From Gammaproteobacteria bacterium (GTDB taxonomy: Bacteria > Pseudomonadota > Gammaproteobacteria > Xanthomonadales > Wenzhouxiangellaceae): a DNA stretch of 64,000 bases. The DNA lies in contig JAJFKY010000016.1 in the NCBI GenBank assembly GCA_021772975.1, positions 62,001 to 126,000 on the forward strand, in the 5' to 3' direction. The position numbers were made by a program, and so were the translations under genes. How positions within the stretch are numbered: the first letter of the stretch is position 1; each line of letters begins with the position of its first letter. Below, one piece after another: positions 962 to 45,463 of this stretch. The notes beneath the pieces are model-generated. The model was not told where the DNA came from. It made no database searches and worked only from the letters and a program-made list of their open reading frames with translations.

Positions 962-3742
962 ATGATTTTTGTTCGCTGGGTTTTGTTAGGTTCAGTAGCA
1001 GCTTTGCTGATGGCTTGCCAGGCTGATGAACAGCCGGTCACGGACTCCGATGGAGATGCGTCCGATGAGGTGGGCTCCGTTCAGCAGCAGAGCGTGTCCG
1101 CCGAGCCCGACGGTGAACAGGATATTCCGACCGGCCAACTGCCCCGGGATGTGCTGCCCGAGCGCTACAACCTGTTGCTCAGAATTGATCCTGCCAGCGA
1201 GTCTTTTTCCGGCACCACGCGGATTGATCTGAATTTCACCACCGCCAAGACGCATTTTTGGCTGCACGGCAATGGCCTGGAGGTACAACAGGCCAGCCTG
1301 TTGCCGACCGGCAGCGACGTGATTCAGCTGGATTACCAGCAGGTGCATGATTCCGGTGTGGCGCGTCTGTCTGCCGCGACTGAAATTCCCGCCGGTAAAG
1401 CCGTTCTGGAACTGGTCTATACAGCACCATTTAACCGCTCGCTGGAAGGCCTGTACCGGGTCGATAACGGTGGTGAAGCTTATGCCTTTACCCAGTTTGA
1501 AGCGACCTCGGCGCGCCTGGCCTTTCCGGGTTTCGACGATCCCTGGTTTAAAACACCGTTTGCGGTGACCATGGAGGTTAAAGCATCGGATGTTGCCATC
1601 GCCAATACGCCCGAGCTGTCATCCAGCATATTGGCGGATGACTGGAAGAGCGTCAGATTTGCTCCCAGCAAACCCTTGCCGACCTATCTGGTTGCTTTTG
1701 CGGTGGGGCCGTTTGATGTGGTGGAGTGGCCGGATTTACCCCCCACCGAGGTGCGCGGCAGAGCCTTGCCGCTAAGAGGCGTGGCGGTCCGCGGCAAAGG
1801 TGAACAATTAACCTATGCGCTGGAAAATACCCAGCCGATTCTGGAATCGCTGGAAGCTTACTTCGGCAGTCCTTATCCGTATGCCAAGCTGGATATTATC
1901 GCGGTACCGGATTTTTCCGCCGGTGCGATGGAAAATGCCGGTGCGATCACCTATCGCGAACAGTTGCTGCTGCTGGATGAGAACTCCACCGCGCGCACCC
2001 GGTTTGCCTATCAGTCAGTGCATGCGCACGAGCTGGCGCATCAATGGTTTGGCAATCTGGTGACGCCTGACTGGTGGGATGACATCTGGTTGAATGAGGC
2101 CTTTGCCACCTGGATGGCCGCGGTTGCCCTCGACCGGATTGATCCGGATGCGGGTTACCGCCGCACCCTGTTGGAGCGCTCGCTGGGTGCCATGAGTGTC
2201 GATAGCCTGATCAGTGCCCGGCAGATTCGCCAGCCGATCTTATCCAATCATGATATCGCCTCGGCTTTTGACAGCATTACTTACCGCAAAGGTGGTGGAG
2301 TGCTGGCCATGTTTGAGCGTTATCTGGGCCGGGATAACTTCCAGCAGGGTATCCAGAATTATCTGCGTAAACATAGCTGGGGCAACGCCAGTGCGGATGA
2401 CTTTATCGCATCAATCTCTGCGCAGTCTCCGCCCGGACAGGCCGATTCGACTGCTGCGGCATTCCTGTCGTTTTTGACTCAGCCGGGTTTACCACAGATC
2501 AAGGCCGAGATTGACTGCGAGGGCGGTGAGGAGAGTGAAATCAAGGTCAGCTTAAGCCAGAATCGCTATCTGCCATTGGGTTCTGATGGCGATCCCGATC
2601 AGCAGTGGCAAATTCCGGCGTGTGTACGCTACGGCATGCAGGATGGCGCTACCGGAACCCAATGCAGCCTGTTGAGCGAGCCGCGGGCCCAGGTCTATCT
2701 GGCGGTTGAGCAGTGCCCGCAGTGGATATTGCCCAACGCCGGCGGAGCAGGTTACTACCGGTTTACGCTGGATGCTGAGAACTGGAGCAGTTTATTGTCC
2801 GCCAGCAATGAACTCAGTGATATTGAAATGCTGTCAGTCAGCGATAGCTATCTGGCCGCCTATCATGCCGGCCAGCTTGATATGGATACGCTGTTTACAC
2901 AGTTGCCCGCGTTGCTGAATCATCCCAACCATGAGGTGGCCGCCAGCCCATTGGATGAACTGCAGGAAATTTATGAGGCCATCGCTGACAGCCGCAGCCA
3001 GGTGGCCATGCAGAAGTATCTGGCGCCGCTGTATCAGCAGCGTCTGGACCAACTGGGTGTGGATAGCCTGGATGACCGCAATGCCGCCAGTCTGCAGGAA
3101 AAACTGATCAGGCAACTGGCATTGGTATTACGGATGCCGAAAACGCGCAGCCAGGTTGGTCCGATAGGTATGGCCTACACCGGTACACCATCTCTGGAAG
3201 CAACCTTGAATGACGCTCAGGTTAACCTGAACCTGGTGGAAGTGGCGATGAGCACGGCGGTACGCGATCACGGCAAATTCTACTTTGATCATCTCACCAG
3301 TCTGGTGCTGGAATCGAATGATGCGATTTTCCGGCAACGGGCTTTATCAGCGCTCGGCAGTGTTGAAGACCCTGAGCTTGCGCTGGCCGCTCTGGAGTTA
3401 TCCCTCAGCCCGGATATCAGGGCCAACGAAGCCTATCTGCTAATGGCTCCGCAGATGAGTCAGCCGGCCACCCGGCAGCAGGCCTGGCAATGGCTGCAGC
3501 AGAATCTGGAAGCGGTGATCGAACGCATCCCCGCCTGGCGCAAGGGCCGCGTTTCGCAGTATGCCAGTGATTTTTGCAGTGCCGAGCAGCGCGCGGCGGT
3601 GGCAGCATTTTTCACCGATAAAGTGGAAGATTTACAGGGCGGTCCGCGTGCGCTGGCCAATACTCTGGAAGATATCCAGTTATGTGAGGCCCGTAAAAAG
3701 CATTATCAGCCGCAACTGAAAGCCTGGACGCGTGCGCAATAG
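962..3742 (+). CDS. M1 family metallo-aminopeptidase, predicted lipoprotein
   Basis: This is a zinc aminopeptidase of about 926 aa that would release N-terminal residues from peptides. It has the exopeptidase motif GAMENAG and the zinc site HELAHQW (about residues 356-360), followed by NEAFATW with the third zinc ligand Glu. Length and motifs fit family M1 (PepN/ERAP-like). The N-terminus is a lipoprotein signal ending in the lipobox LLMAC (Cys19), so the enzyme is probably anchored in the envelope, unlike cytosolic PepN. An in-frame ATG occurs at 947, but ATG 962 has GGAGG at 953-957 with ideal spacing and gives a compact signal peptide, so I chose it. The protein probably feeds on periplasmic or external peptides. 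The gene appears to be transcribed alone. Confidence 0.9.
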   Translation: MIFVRWVLLGSVAALLMACQADEQPVTDSDGDASDEVGSVQQQSVSAEPDGEQDIPTGQLPRDVLPERYNLLLRIDPASESFSGTTRIDLNFTTAKTHFWLHGNGLEVQQASLLPTGSDVIQLDYQQVHDSGVARLSAATEIPAGKAVLELVYTAPFNRSLEGLYRVDNGGEAYAFTQFEATSARLAFPGFDDPWFKTPFAVTMEVKASDVAIANTPELSSSILADDWKSVRFAPSKPLPTYLVAFAVGPFDVVEWPDLPPTEVRGRALPLRGVAVRGKGEQLTYALENTQPILESLEAYFGSPYPYAKLDIIAVPDFSAGAMENAGAITYREQLLLLDENSTARTRFAYQSVHAHELAHQWFGNLVTPDWWDDIWLNEAFATWMAAVALDRIDPDAGYRRTLLERSLGAMSVDSLISARQIRQPILSNHDIASAFDSITYRKGGGVLAMFERYLGRDNFQQGIQNYLRKHSWGNASADDFIASISAQSPPGQADSTAAAFLSFLTQPGLPQIKAEIDCEGGEESEIKVSLSQNRYLPLGSDGDPDQQWQIPACVRYGMQDGATGTQCSLLSEPRAQVYLAVEQCPQWILPNAGGAGYYRFTLDAENWSSLLSASNELSDIEMLSVSDSYLAAYHAGQLDMDTLFTQLPALLNHPNHEVAASPLDELQEIYEAIADSRSQVAMQKYLAPLYQQRLDQLGVDSLDDRNAASLQEKLIRQLALVLRMPKTRSQVGPIGMAYTGTPSLEATLNDAQVNLNLVEVAMSTAVRDHGKFYFDHLTSLVLESNDAIFRQRALSALGSVEDPELALAALELSLSPDIRANEAYLLMAPQMSQPATRQQAWQWLQQNLEAVIERIPAWRKGRVSQYASDFCSAEQRAAVAAFFTDKVEDLQGGPRALANTLEDIQLCEARKKHYQPQLKAWTRAQ

Positions 3743-3778
3743 CCGGCGCCCAGCATTAATCACAGTGGAGCCGAACCG

Positions 3779-4102
3779 ATGACCGGAAATGCTGCGGACA
3801 ACCCCCGTTTTGCCAGCTTTGCGGAGTTCTATCCGTATTATCTGAGCGAGCACCAGAATTTGATCTGCCGCCGTCTGCACTTTATCGGCAGCTGGCTGGT
3901 GCTGGCGATCATGCTGGCGGTTTTGATCAGCGGTAAGTTATGGCTGTTGCTGCTGTTGCCGGTGGCGGGTTACGGTTTTGCCTGGACCGGTCATTTTTTC
4001 TTTGAGCACAACAAGCCTGCCACCTTCAAATACCCGCTCTACAGTCTGCGCGGTGACTGGGTAATGTTCGCGGATATTCTGCGCGGTAAGATCAGCCTAT
4101 AA
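3779..4102 (+). CDS. DUF962 / Mpo1-like membrane protein
   Basis: This 107-aa protein has two central membrane helices and histidines near both ends (SEHQN, RRLHFIG, GHFFFEHNKP), the usual pattern of the DUF962 family. The yeast member Mpo1 is an iron-dependent dioxygenase in alpha-oxidation of 2-hydroxy fatty acids. Bacterial members are mostly uncharacterised, so enzyme activity is inferred from family only. The start has a plausible GGAG upstream (GTGGAGCCGAACCG). It lies 36 bp after the aminopeptidase and 18 bp before the DUF445 gene and may be co-transcribed with them. Confidence 0.75.
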   Translation: MTGNAADNPRFASFAEFYPYYLSEHQNLICRRLHFIGSWLVLAIMLAVLISGKLWLLLLLPVAGYGFAWTGHFFFEHNKPATFKYPLYSLRGDWVMFADILRGKISL

Positions 4103-42307: not shown

Positions 42308-42354
42308 GCAGTTTAATGCTTGAGTTTACTGATACAACACAGGAGTTATCAGCT

Positions 42355-43611
42355 ATGAGACATCGCACGATCAGCCATTCAGGCATAATGGTTTTATCAC
42401 TGTTGGTGATGCTGGCGCCGGCCCTGGCGCAAAACCAATGTGGCGCCGAGCGTGACGTGAAAGCGTCGGCTTTAAGCGAAGCCACCTATAAGCAGTTGTC
42501 GGATATCTACGAAGATATCGGTGAGGAAAAATACGCTGACGCACAGCAGGGCCTGGAGCGCATGCTCGGCCGTTCCAAAGACGGCGGCTATGAGCAGGCG
42601 ATTATCCTGCAGGCGCTGGGGCATACCGCGGCCTCCAGAGAAGACTACGACAAGGCGTTGGAGTATTTTCAGCGCTCGGTTGATATTAATGCGTTACCCA
42701 ACCGCCAACACTATCAGATGATCTATTCGATCGCCCAGTTGCTGATCGCCAGAGAACGTTACCGTGAAGGCCTGGAAAAACTGGAGCAGTGGTTCTGTGT
42801 CACGCCACCCGCAGATATCACCGCCACTGCCTATGTGCTGAAAGCCAGTGCCAATGTTGAACTGGAAAATTATCAGGCGGCTCTGGGTGCTATTGATAAA
42901 GCGATTGAGCTGTCAGATGAGCCTAAAGAAAACTGGTATCAGATGCGACTGGGCATCAATTTTGAAATGGATGATTTGCCGGCTGCCGCCCGCACGCTGG
43001 AAATAATGATTAATCTATGGCCGGAAAATGAATCTTACTGGAAACAGTTGTCGTCGGTTTATCTGAATATCAAAGAGGAAAACAAGGCCTTGTCAGTCAT
43101 GGCTTTGGCGTATCGTCGTAATATGCTGGATACCGCTCAGGAAATTCAACAGTTATCCAGCCTTTATCAGTTCCGTGATGTGCCCTATGAGGCGGCTCAG
43201 GTGCTGGAGAAAGGTATTAATGACGGTATTGTTGAGTCCAATAAAAAATTCTGGGAACAGACCGCCAACGCCTGGTATCAGGCGCGTGAACTGGAAAAGG
43301 CTCTGAACGCTTATGAAAAAGCCGGTCAATATTCAGATGACGGCAGTATTGATCTGCGCCGGGCATTTATTCTGGTGGATCGTCAGGAGTGGGACTCAGC
43401 TATTGAAGCTTTGCAGCGCGCCATTGAAAAAGGTGGTTTGAGTGATAATGAAGTTGGTAACGCGCATTTGCTGATCGGTATGTCGCATATGAATCTGGAG
43501 CGTTTTAATGCCGCGGATGTTGCTTTTGACAACGCTTTGCGTTTTGATCGCAGCCGAGGTCCCGCGCGACAATGGAAGGAGCAGGTGCAGCAACGTCGCG
43601 AAGCAGGATAA
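42355..43611 (+). CDS. TPR protein of the TonB2-type operon
   Basis: This protein of about 418 aa has a signal peptide ending APALAQ and at least six to eight tetratricopeptide-like helix pairs (for example ILQALGHTAASREDYDKALEYF and WYQARELEKALNAYEKAG). The start is ATG 42355, preceded by AGGAG; the frame is open 13 codons further. The Vibrio TonB2 cluster ends with a similar TPR gene. Such periplasmic TPR proteins are thought to help assemble the TonB machine. The 46 bp after it lead to the lysine-rich gene. Confidence 0.88.
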   Translation: MRHRTISHSGIMVLSLLVMLAPALAQNQCGAERDVKASALSEATYKQLSDIYEDIGEEKYADAQQGLERMLGRSKDGGYEQAIILQALGHTAASREDYDKALEYFQRSVDINALPNRQHYQMIYSIAQLLIARERYREGLEKLEQWFCVTPPADITATAYVLKASANVELENYQAALGAIDKAIELSDEPKENWYQMRLGINFEMDDLPAAARTLEIMINLWPENESYWKQLSSVYLNIKEENKALSVMALAYRRNMLDTAQEIQQLSSLYQFRDVPYEAAQVLEKGINDGIVESNKKFWEQTANAWYQARELEKALNAYEKAGQYSDDGSIDLRRAFILVDRQEWDSAIEALQRAIEKGGLSDNEVGNAHLLIGMSHMNLERFNAADVAFDNALRFDRSRGPARQWKEQVQQRREAG

Positions 43612-43657: not shown

Positions 43658-44503
43658 ATGAACAATAACGAAGTTTTGATAACTGAAGAACAGGCAACTG
43701 GTGAAGCCGCTGCCGAGCAAACGTCCAGCGCGGCCGCTGTCACCGGTGCAGGTGAGCCCAGTCAATCGGCTAGCAAAAAAGTGACCAAGAAAAAAGCGGC
43801 TAAGAAAAAAGCCAGCAAGAAAAAAGTCGCTAAAAAGAAAGCAGCAAGCAAAAAGACTGGCAAGAAAGCCACCGATAAAAAAGTCAGCAAGAAAAAAGCC
43901 ACTAAGAAAAAGGCCAGTAAGAAAAAAGCGGCCAGCAAGAAAGTGAGCAAGAAGAAAGTCACCAAGAAAGTCGGCAAAAAAGGCCGGCCCAAGAAAGCTG
44001 GTAAGAAAGGTCGGCCCAAAAAAGCTGGTAAGAAAGGTCGGCCCAAGAAAGCCGGCAAAAAAGGTCGGCCTAAAAAAGCCGGCAGCAAGGCCGGCAAAAA
44101 AGTCGGTAAAAAAGGTCGGCCCAAGAAAGCCGGCAGCAAGGTCGCCAAAAAAGTCGGCAAGAAAGGCCGGCCCAAAAAAGCCGCCGGTAAAGTAGCCAAG
44201 AAAGTTGGTAAAAAAGGCCGGCCTAAAAAAGCTGGCAAAAAAGGTCGGCCCAAGAAAGCCGCTAAGAAAAGCAGCAATAAAAGGTCGTCCGGTGACTTAA
44301 GCAGTGTGCAGGAGCACAGTGCGGCGATTGCACAGCATTTGCAGGCCGCGGTAGACGAGATTGTGACGGTGATTGCGCATGAACTACGCAGCCGCACAGA
44401 GGATATCGTCAGCCGTGCTAATGAATTGCAGTCTGATGCTCAACAGAAGCTTTCGGATGTCGAGTCGGCAGCGCGACGGACATTGCGAGCGCTGCGCGGC
44501 TGA
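43658..44503 (+). CDS. Histone-H1-like lysine-rich protein with eight AT-hook (GRP) motifs
   Basis: This 281-aa protein has three parts. Residues 1-39 are acidic to neutral. Residues 40-210 are Lys/Ala repeats: first KKxTKKKA-type units (40-106), then KKGRPKKAG units. GRP cores are at residues 109, 118, 127, 136, 153, 170, 187 and 196, each between lysines, as in AT-hooks that bind the minor groove of AT-rich DNA. Residues 211-281 form a helical, mixed-charge tail. The basic part resembles AlgP of Pseudomonas and eukaryotic H1 tails. It probably binds DNA, or another polyanion, and may compact the chromosome or regulate genes. The coding DNA has 27-bp tandem units from about 43970. An intrinsic terminator lies 55 bp after the stop. 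Confidence 0.85.
   Translation: MNNNEVLITEEQATGEAAAEQTSSAAAVTGAGEPSQSASKKVTKKKAAKKKASKKKVAKKKAASKKTGKKATDKKVSKKKATKKKASKKKAASKKVSKKKVTKKVGKKGRPKKAGKKGRPKKAGKKGRPKKAGKKGRPKKAGSKAGKKVGKKGRPKKAGSKVAKKVGKKGRPKKAAGKVAKKVGKKGRPKKAGKKGRPKKAAKKSSNKRSSGDLSSVQEHSAAIAQHLQAAVDEIVTVIAHELRSRTEDIVSRANELQSDAQQKLSDVESAARRTLRALRG
43970..44270 (+). repeat. Tandem 27-bp units encoding KKGRPKKAG
   Basis: At least four adjacent units, and four more spaced by short GKV-type inserts, encode the nine-residue AT-hook repeat. Synonymous differences (GGC/GGT, AAA/AAG, CCC/CCT) show that they are not all recent copies. Number variation by slippage is likely among strains. Confidence 0.75.
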
Positions 44504-44554
44504 CGCCAGTGCGACCGGCTGATGGCATCCATGCCTGAGGCAGGTTCCGAAACC

Positions 44555-45463
44555 ATGACCGGTAGCGACTCGCTACCGGTTTTTTTATGTCATATTCAAG
44601 CCTTCCTGGATGCTTTGTGGTCCGAGCGTGGCCTGGCCGATAATACCCTGGAAAGTTACCGTCAGGATTTGACCGCGTTCGCGGAATTTCTGTCCTCACA
44701 GGATAAAGACATAACCGCTGTCGATCGCTCTGAATTACAGTTGTATCTGAACTTTCTGTATGTCAATGGAATGAGCACAGCCACCGTTGCCCGGCGAATT
44801 TCATGTCTGCGGCAGTTTTTTCGCTGGTCGGTGCAGAACGGCTCTTTGTCACAGGACCCTACCGCACTGTTGCTGTCGCCACGACACAGCCGGTCGTTGC
44901 CTAAAGCGCTTGGTGAAGAAGATATTGAGGCCTTGCTGGCGGTGGATACCGAGCAGCGGCTGGGATTGCGTGATAAGGCGATGCTGGAACTGTTATATGC
45001 GACAGGCCTGCGGGTCAGCGAGCTGGTGCAGATCAAACAGGCGGACGTGAGCATGCGTCAGGGCGTGGCCAGAGTACTAGGCAAGGGCAATAAAGAACGC
45101 CTGGTGCCGATCGGTGAGCGTGCCCTGGACGCATTGCAGGCTTATTTACAACAGCAACGCGGTCAGCTGGCCAATCATCCGGCCGAGCCGGCTTTATTTC
45201 TGACTGAACGGGGCAAGCCGATGACCCGTCAGGCGTTTTGGTATCTGATCAAGCGGCATGCTCGTCGAGCTGGAATTACGCAGCCATTATCGCCGCACAG
45301 TCTGAGGCACTGTTTTGCTACTCATCTGCTTGATCATGGCGCTGATCTGCGGGTAGTCCAGTTGTTGCTTGGTCACAGCGACTTATCCACCACCCAGATC
45401 TACACGCATATCGCTCGCGATCGTCTGCAGTCACTGCACGCTGCCCATCACCCCCGAGGTTAG
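44555..45463 (+). CDS. xerD: Site-specific tyrosine recombinase XerD
   Basis: This recombinase of about 302 aa resolves chromosome dimers at dif with XerC. It has a SAM-like core-binding domain and a catalytic domain with Arg in ATGLRVSEL, Lys in GKGNKERLVP, HSLRH, LLGHSD and Tyr in TTQIYTH. The ending HAAHHPRG matches E. coli XerD, and dsbC follows as in E. coli. The start is uncertain: ATG 44522 and 44531 are in frame, but 44555 gives an N-terminus nearest to known XerD. A terminator hairpin lies directly after that ATG. Confidence 0.92.
   Translation: MTGSDSLPVFLCHIQAFLDALWSERGLADNTLESYRQDLTAFAEFLSSQDKDITAVDRSELQLYLNFLYVNGMSTATVARRISCLRQFFRWSVQNGSLSQDPTALLLSPRHSRSLPKALGEEDIEALLAVDTEQRLGLRDKAMLELLYATGLRVSELVQIKQADVSMRQGVARVLGKGNKERLVPIGERALDALQAYLQQQRGQLANHPAEPALFLTERGKPMTRQAFWYLIKRHARRAGITQPLSPHSLRHCFATHLLDHGADLRVVQLLLGHSDLSTTQIYTHIARDRLQSLHAAHHPRG
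44558..44586 (+). terminator. Intrinsic terminator overlapping the start of xerD
   Basis: A 9-bp perfect stem, ACCGGTAGC (44558-44566) and GCTACCGGT (44572-44580), with a 5-base loop, is followed by a run of seven T (44580-44586). It should end the transcript of the AT-hook gene. It is also coding sequence for xerD codons 2 onward. Confidence 0.8.

Follow-up and report, generated by a model that had tools for sequence, protein, structure and literature searches.

In Pseudomonas, AlgP and PhaF each combine a helical module with a long, lysine-rich, DNA-binding repeat domain of H1-like composition, as described in the excerpts of PMC9239181 and PMC3574117. Their repeats are of the KPAA type, and the helical module is N-terminal. 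Lysine-rich pentamers that vary in number make up the Hc2/BpH1-type proteins of Chlamydia, Bordetella, and Burkholderia, and the excerpt of their source mentions no GRP hooks (PMC2848022). Such AT-hooks are defined by a GRP core with basic flanking residues, and several of them occur in the HMGA proteins, which bind the minor groove (PMC11354804, in excerpt). Also of the HMGA type, CarD from Myxococcus xanthus has four RGRP hooks, set in a basic, disordered segment that adjoins an acidic one, and carries an RNA-polymerase-binding domain; its excerpted description adds that HMGA-like and H1-like basic domains are interchangeable in the laboratory and that diminished activity is kept with neither (PMC8156234). 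A protein from a filamentous prophage of Cupriavidus taiwanensis is likewise named for an AT-hook, near its N-terminus; it has an RGR motif, and the excerpt of its source describes neither an array nor H1-like repeats (PMC10011098).

The window that we analyzed, a stretch of 64,000 nucleotides, contains a forward-strand open reading frame (43658–44503, ATG start) encoding a protein of 281 residues, with 97 Lys and Arg residues against 18 Asp and Glu residues. An earlier note had read it as a lysine-rich, H1-like protein in which a KKA-type block is followed by eight GRP cores and a conserved helical tail, and this layout is borne out by the sequence of the open reading frame (Table 1). Like AlgP and PhaF, the protein joins lysine-rich repeats to a helical module, but its repeats are of the KKKA type and KKGRPKK, and the helix is C-terminal. 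As in CarD, the hooks lie in a basic, disordered segment with an acidic one next to it; the hook-bearing proteins described here differ from CarD in having 8–10 KGRP hooks and a helical tail. The several GRP cores with basic flanks also recall HMGA, although HMGA is eukaryotic and has canonical RGRP cores, whereas the window protein is bacterial and has KGRP. Fission-yeast Orc4 carries nine hooks; we know of no H1-like pentamers in either HMGA or Orc4. Identity with AlgP was rejected, as KPAA-type repeats were not encountered, and a search for KPAA-KPAA in 15 genomes gave matches in 4, all of them in other lysine-rich or unrelated proteins.

Table 1. Features of the H1-like gene and its surroundings, in window positions.
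Feature	Position	Strand	Description
TPR-repeat protein gene, upstream neighbor	42316..43611	+	preceded by two genes with TonB C-terminal domains
N-terminal head	43658..43774	+	residues 1–39; six Glu, zero Lys/Arg, Ala/Ser-rich; predicted disordered
H1-like lysine block	43775..43975	+	residues 40–106; KKKA/KKKV pentamers, period of about 15 bases
AT-hook-like array	43976..44257	+	residues 107–200; eight copies of KKGRPKK, all identical, at intervals of 27 or 51 bases
Linker	44258..44293	+	residues 201–212; basic, Ser-rich (from the sequence)
C-terminal tail	44294..44500	+	residues 213–281; predicted long amphipathic helix with 11-residue periodicity; relatives were found through the tail
xerD, downstream neighbor	44555..45463	+	TIGR02225, 375.7 bits against a cut-off of 329.6
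Intrinsic-terminator-like hairpin	44557..44581	+	strong; stem of 11 pairs followed by a run of T; located past the H1-like gene and ahead of the main part of xerD

In a full-length model predicted from the single sequence, the head has pLDDT values of 46–49, residues 42–67 in the lysine block form a weaker helix, the hook region is a low-confidence coil, and residues 214–280 are helical. Acidic or polar heads are also displayed by the orthologues that reach a start codon. The lysine pentamers are encoded by a tandem repeat with a 15-base period (43775–43969), and such pentamer repeats are a hallmark of H1-like proteins of the Hc2/BpH1 type. The window protein does not reach the HC2 and H1-like profiles; we regard it as working like Hc2, not as a member of that group.

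Around the gene, the neighborhood continues downstream of xerD with dsbC-like and purL genes. The first in-frame start of xerD is at 44522 and a further in-frame ATG at 44555, and with either one the terminator-like hairpin falls within the 5′ end of xerD. This hairpin may terminate transcription of the H1-like gene, or it may attenuate xerD; when a conserved terminator 3′ of the gene was sought, a hairpin was present at 8 of the 37 relative loci, and among the 30 of these that lie at xerD it was present at 5.

We searched 43 genomes of the family with a profile built from six tails, and it matched 31. A tail or a lysine-rich open reading frame lies directly upstream of xerD in 34 of the 43; these are 30 of the 31 profile matches plus four genomes missed by the profile (G003, G005, G009, and G013), and in three of them (G066, G028, and G017) the tail alone is visible before the contig ends. 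Other families of the order contributed 27 xerD loci as a control, and none of these has a lysine-rich open reading frame (at least 18 Lys in 60 residues) in the DNA covered; they are the non-family loci among 30 listed of 71 xerD matches, and two of them have fewer than 300 bases upstream. Given 34 of 43 family genomes against none of 27 control loci, we take the gene to be family-specific and fixed in its location within the sample examined. Two genomes, G019 and G035, keep the xerD locus without the lysine-rich gene, so that the gene is dispensable in some lineages. In the other seven, the xerD locus was not recovered; G023, which is among them, carries a paralogue alone, at another site.

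Both G035 (L127) and G019 (L132) are small genomes of genus g6, of 1.7 and 1.8 Mb, with a different gene upstream of xerD; the tail profile finds nothing elsewhere in either, and the absence is possibly a loss accompanying genome reduction. In many draft assemblies, contigs end within the lysine repeats (G006:C27, G002:C36, G027:C94, G021:C180, G064:C7, and others), and public annotation of this family is therefore probably poor.

Among the 34 xerD-linked genomes, the hook array is present in four only, two of genus g1, to which the window genome belongs, and two of genus g4. KKGRPKK is absent from the locus in the other 30, which have KKKAS-like repeats wherever repeats are visible; in 14 of them a contig end truncates the gene, and 11 of these 14 breaks fall within the repeats. 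In g1, a lysine block is retained before the hooks, and in g4 the hooks form nearly the whole array. The claim that so many GRP cores in one protein are unusual agrees with a search for the KKGRPKK pattern in 369 genomes of the class, a sample that does not include the second g1 genome or the two g4 genomes. KKGRPKK was found in three of the 369, and the window genome alone has more than one (eight); the other two have one copy each, in a long enzyme open reading frame that by eye resembles fatty-acid oxidation. When contigs of 84,980 species were scanned with the whole protein, the matches listed contained at least one relative, from the second g1 genome. In the open-access literature that we searched, we found no bacterial protein with a comparable hook array and no xerD-linked lysine-rich protein.

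A four-gene tree of 25 genomes, which is unrooted and has missing data, splits g1 and g4 from the rest with support of 96.5/99. This fits a single origin of the hook array, which probably arose once. In a tree of xerD only, the grouping of g1 and g4 has a modest support of 90/73, and the outgroups are not cleanly separated from the family. Judged from these sequences, the lysine repeats seem to have been replaced or extended by hooks in a lineage-specific manner, within an xerD-linked orthologous family. The G+C content of the locus permits no conclusion: it is 0.467–0.582 in hook-bearing genomes and 0.60–0.66 in most of g6, and it is 0.451 in G003, which has no hooks; that of the window is 0.56.

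Two further arrangements were observed in the family. In G003 (L124, genus g3), the tail of the orthologue is shorter and diverged, and the lysine repeats end in KKGRRGRKK, possibly a half-way state toward a hook. In four g6 genomes (L071, L073, L074, and L075), paralogues located away from xerD have one hook close to the N-terminus (RRGRPPG in three, PRGRPPG in one), followed by lysine repeats and a related tail. We read these paralogues as a second, independent joining of a hook with H1-like repeats. A g6 paralogue without a hook, L079, exceeds the Pfam cut-off for HC2 (45.2 against 40) and stays below those of NCBIfam.

In the window protein, the GRP cores lie at residues 109, 118, 127, 136, 153, 170, 187, and 196, with spacings of 9, 9, 9, 17, 17, 17, and 9 residues between units. 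All eight are inside KKGRPKK, confirming the count of lysine-flanked cores in the earlier note; in 20,000 shuffles of residues 34–210, the mean number of GRP was 0.05 and the maximum 2. Their designation as true AT-hooks holds in part: basic residues flank the core in 8 of 8 cases, as the definition of the AT-hook demands, but the core is KGRP, and the term is too strong. Lys precedes Gly in all 36 GRP cores of the four hook-bearing genomes, and the canonical RGRP core is absent. HMGA and CarD carry an Arg ahead of the core; in its absence, each hook may bind more weakly. No match to the Pfam AT_hook model was reported for the window protein (E ≤ 1); this says little, since the same model also missed two of the RRGRPPG paralogues (E ≤ 0.1).

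The number of units, a comparison that had been proposed as a check, is 8 in the window genome, 10 in the second g1 genome, and 9 in each g4 genome, and the units of one gene are mostly distinct at the DNA level (7 of 8, 7 of 10, 9 of 9, and 8 of 9 distinct sequences). When units within one gene were compared, the seven hook codons gave a pN of 0 in all four genomes, with pS values of 0.44, 0.43, 0.66, and 0.70, whereas the two linker codons that follow each hook gave a pN of 0.11–0.29, so that amino acids do vary there. Collecting the units by the exact peptide biases pN toward 0; as a check on this bias, all GRP of the four proteins fall within KKGRPKK units, and heptapeptides with one or two differences from KKGRPKK were found in none of them. 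Because all 36 GRP cores occur in one heptapeptide although synonymous sites differ, the KKGRPKK peptide appears to be under selection.

This pattern bears on two explanations in which the hooks as such would be unimportant. The array could be a product of repeat slippage in which only charge matters, and the variable number of units (8, 10, 9, and 9) and the widely varying length of the lysine repeats in orthologues would agree with this. The exclusively synonymous differences between hook codons, next to linker codons that change residues, and the retention of the array in two genera separated by long branches nevertheless make us consider it exceedingly improbable. Alternatively, lysine repeats and hooks could be general polyanion binders in a protein that binds RNA or the ribosome. 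The composition of the protein, and nothing else, speaks for this, but the exact constraint on GRP and its flanking lysines exceeds what net charge would need, and the neighboring gene encodes a DNA recombinase, which is weak context; we regard RNA or ribosome binding as very unlikely.

Genus g5 includes two sister species whose repeats and tail are in different frames (L122 of G005, about 2762–3640; L123 of G009, about 2758–3790). The repeat frame stops just past A AAA AAA AAG, and the tail follows in the −1 frame; neither gene has a longer run of A than the nine in this sequence. AAG accounts for 106 of 114 and 130 of 133 lysine codons in the repeat frame, and over 32 tail codons there are 14 synonymous differences and 3 residue changes. 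These features suggest programmed frameshifting or transcriptional slippage, which would yield tail-less and tail-bearing forms. Against this, G011 carries a run of nine A as well, at a different codon phase, in a gene that is in frame; the gene of G013 is in frame too, and an assembly error could also account for the frame change. In G022 (L130, the same gene as L057), a g6 genome in a single contig, a one-base shift near 1000–1030 lies inside the KKKAS repeats and puts the tail in another frame; the gene is either broken or switching, or the shift is a sequencing error.

The conservation attributed to the tail is seen in its identity of 74% to the tail of the second g1 genome and of 66% and 57% to those of the two g4 genomes. 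Structure prediction, which the earlier note had proposed for this part of the protein, gave one continuous helix in both models; aligned with one relative in two rows, the tail folds as a single helix over residues 3–76 of 77, with a pLDDT of 91.9 and a pTM of 0.59. In ten full tails, hydrophobicity peaks at 98–99 degrees, corresponding to a period of 3.64–3.67 residues, and the heptad signal is weak; the short tail of G003 peaks at 99.5 degrees, and there the heptad angle is not weak, giving a range of 3.62–3.67 over all 11 tails analyzed. The hydrophobic moment of the window tail was matched or exceeded by 4 of 5000 shuffles. Hendecad coiled coils show such an 11-residue pattern, and so do surface-binding helices. 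The predicted helix with its 11/3 periodicity is compatible with either oligomerization or surface binding.

Foldseek found zero matches to the predicted structure in the PDB. Profile searches with the tail gave weak matches, all to helical proteins (Apolipoprotein, DUF948, and SNARE helices), which we did not take as homology. In 299 genomes of the order, the tail profile had 11 weak matches in other families (E-values from 2.8e-4 to 0.007), of which 10 fall within open frames of at least 423 residues; we took these as chance helix matches and not as relatives.

Apolipoproteins carry surface-binding helices of the 11-residue type, and the tail could be such a helix, with the protein anchoring the nucleoid to the surface of a membrane or granule. 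The period of 3.64–3.67 with its weak heptad signal would suit this function, although hendecad helices can form coiled coils as well. The Apolipoprotein profile match has an E-value of 0.002 and 18 bits against a cut-off of 90, and PhaF, in the excerpt of its source, couples an amphipathic PHA-binding helix to a basic DNA-binding domain (PMC3574117). PhaC_N, however, has no match in the window genome, with a positive control in Caulobacter vibrioides, and no phasin profile was reported; the protein is therefore probably not a PHA phasin, and identity with PhaF was rejected. All in all, tethering to a surface seems quite improbable to us.

We consider it reasonably likely, on balance, that the gene encodes a multivalent, H1-like, nucleoid-associated architectural protein, with hooks and lysines on DNA and the helix joining copies. 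The disordered basic middle would run along DNA: at spaced A/T tracts the eight KGRP hooks would insert into the minor groove, and the lysine block would contribute unspecific contacts. The C-terminal helix would join copies into dimers or higher oligomers, and because it does so, one assembly would offer at least 16 hooks and could bridge or condense DNA; the acidic head would temper binding. This proposal builds on the observed anatomy, the orthology at xerD, and the constraint on the hooks, as well as on a predicted helix, and to these it adds DNA binding, an A/T bias, oligomerization, bridging, and a role for the head. Supporting it, the hook array occupies the same gene and locus as the lysine-repeat arrays of other genera, basic residues far outnumber acidic ones, and the g6 paralogues show hooks and H1-like repeats joined a second time. 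DNA binding is reported for the basic domains of AlgP (PMC9239181), PhaF (PMC3574117), and CarD (PMC8156234) in the respective excerpts, and by analogy we would expect it for the window protein.

The polybasic chain may also bind RNA and polyphosphate. Carried further, the protein could be an AlgP-like organizer of polyphosphate granules, whose basic array binds polyphosphate and DNA and whose helix joins copies, so that granules are spaced on the nucleoid. AlgP of P. aeruginosa, the closest analogue that has been studied, with its predicted helical domain and long lysine-rich H1-like domain, localizes to polyphosphate granules, whose even spacing depends on it, according to the excerpt of PMC9239181, and the window genome encodes Ppk. 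The order of the modules is reversed, however, with the helix last here and first in AlgP, a partner that has no minor groove gives little reason to expect selection on GRP hooks, and the KPAA-KPAA pattern is unmatched in the window genome. A role in granule organization is thus rather unlikely in our view.

For the nucleoid-associated architectural protein that we favor, the complement of silencers in the genome is of interest. The H-NS domain (PF00816) had no match in the window genome, whereas the positive control in E. coli was matched; the genome search with MvaT_DBD was silent, as were its controls, and is uninformative. In the profile search of the window protein itself, Histone_HNS and MvaT_DBD were not reported. 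The silencers H-NS, MvaT, and Lsr2 have folded DNA-binding domains with one short motif each, and the window protein would share with them the principle of an oligomer combined with an A/T minor-groove reader. One could go further and propose that the replacement or extension of H1-type pentamers by HMGA-type hooks in the ancestor of g1 and g4 made an unspecific DNA condenser into a bridging protein that reads A/T and acts as a xenogeneic silencer in a genome lacking H-NS; we present this as a speculation that is unlikely to be correct.

What the present analysis adds to the first reading of the gene is its setting in an xerD-linked family of H1-like proteins whose lysine repeats gave way to hook-like repeats, or were lengthened by them, in what was probably a single event. 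An exchange similar to the one made between the HMGA-like and H1-like domains of CarD in the laboratory seems to have taken place naturally here, in one gene with a fixed neighborhood and a related tail. The window protein is a candidate A/T-reading nucleoid protein in a genome without a detected H-NS domain, and orthologues with lysine repeats and with hooks provide a ready-made comparison for what hooks add to a polylysine chromatin protein.
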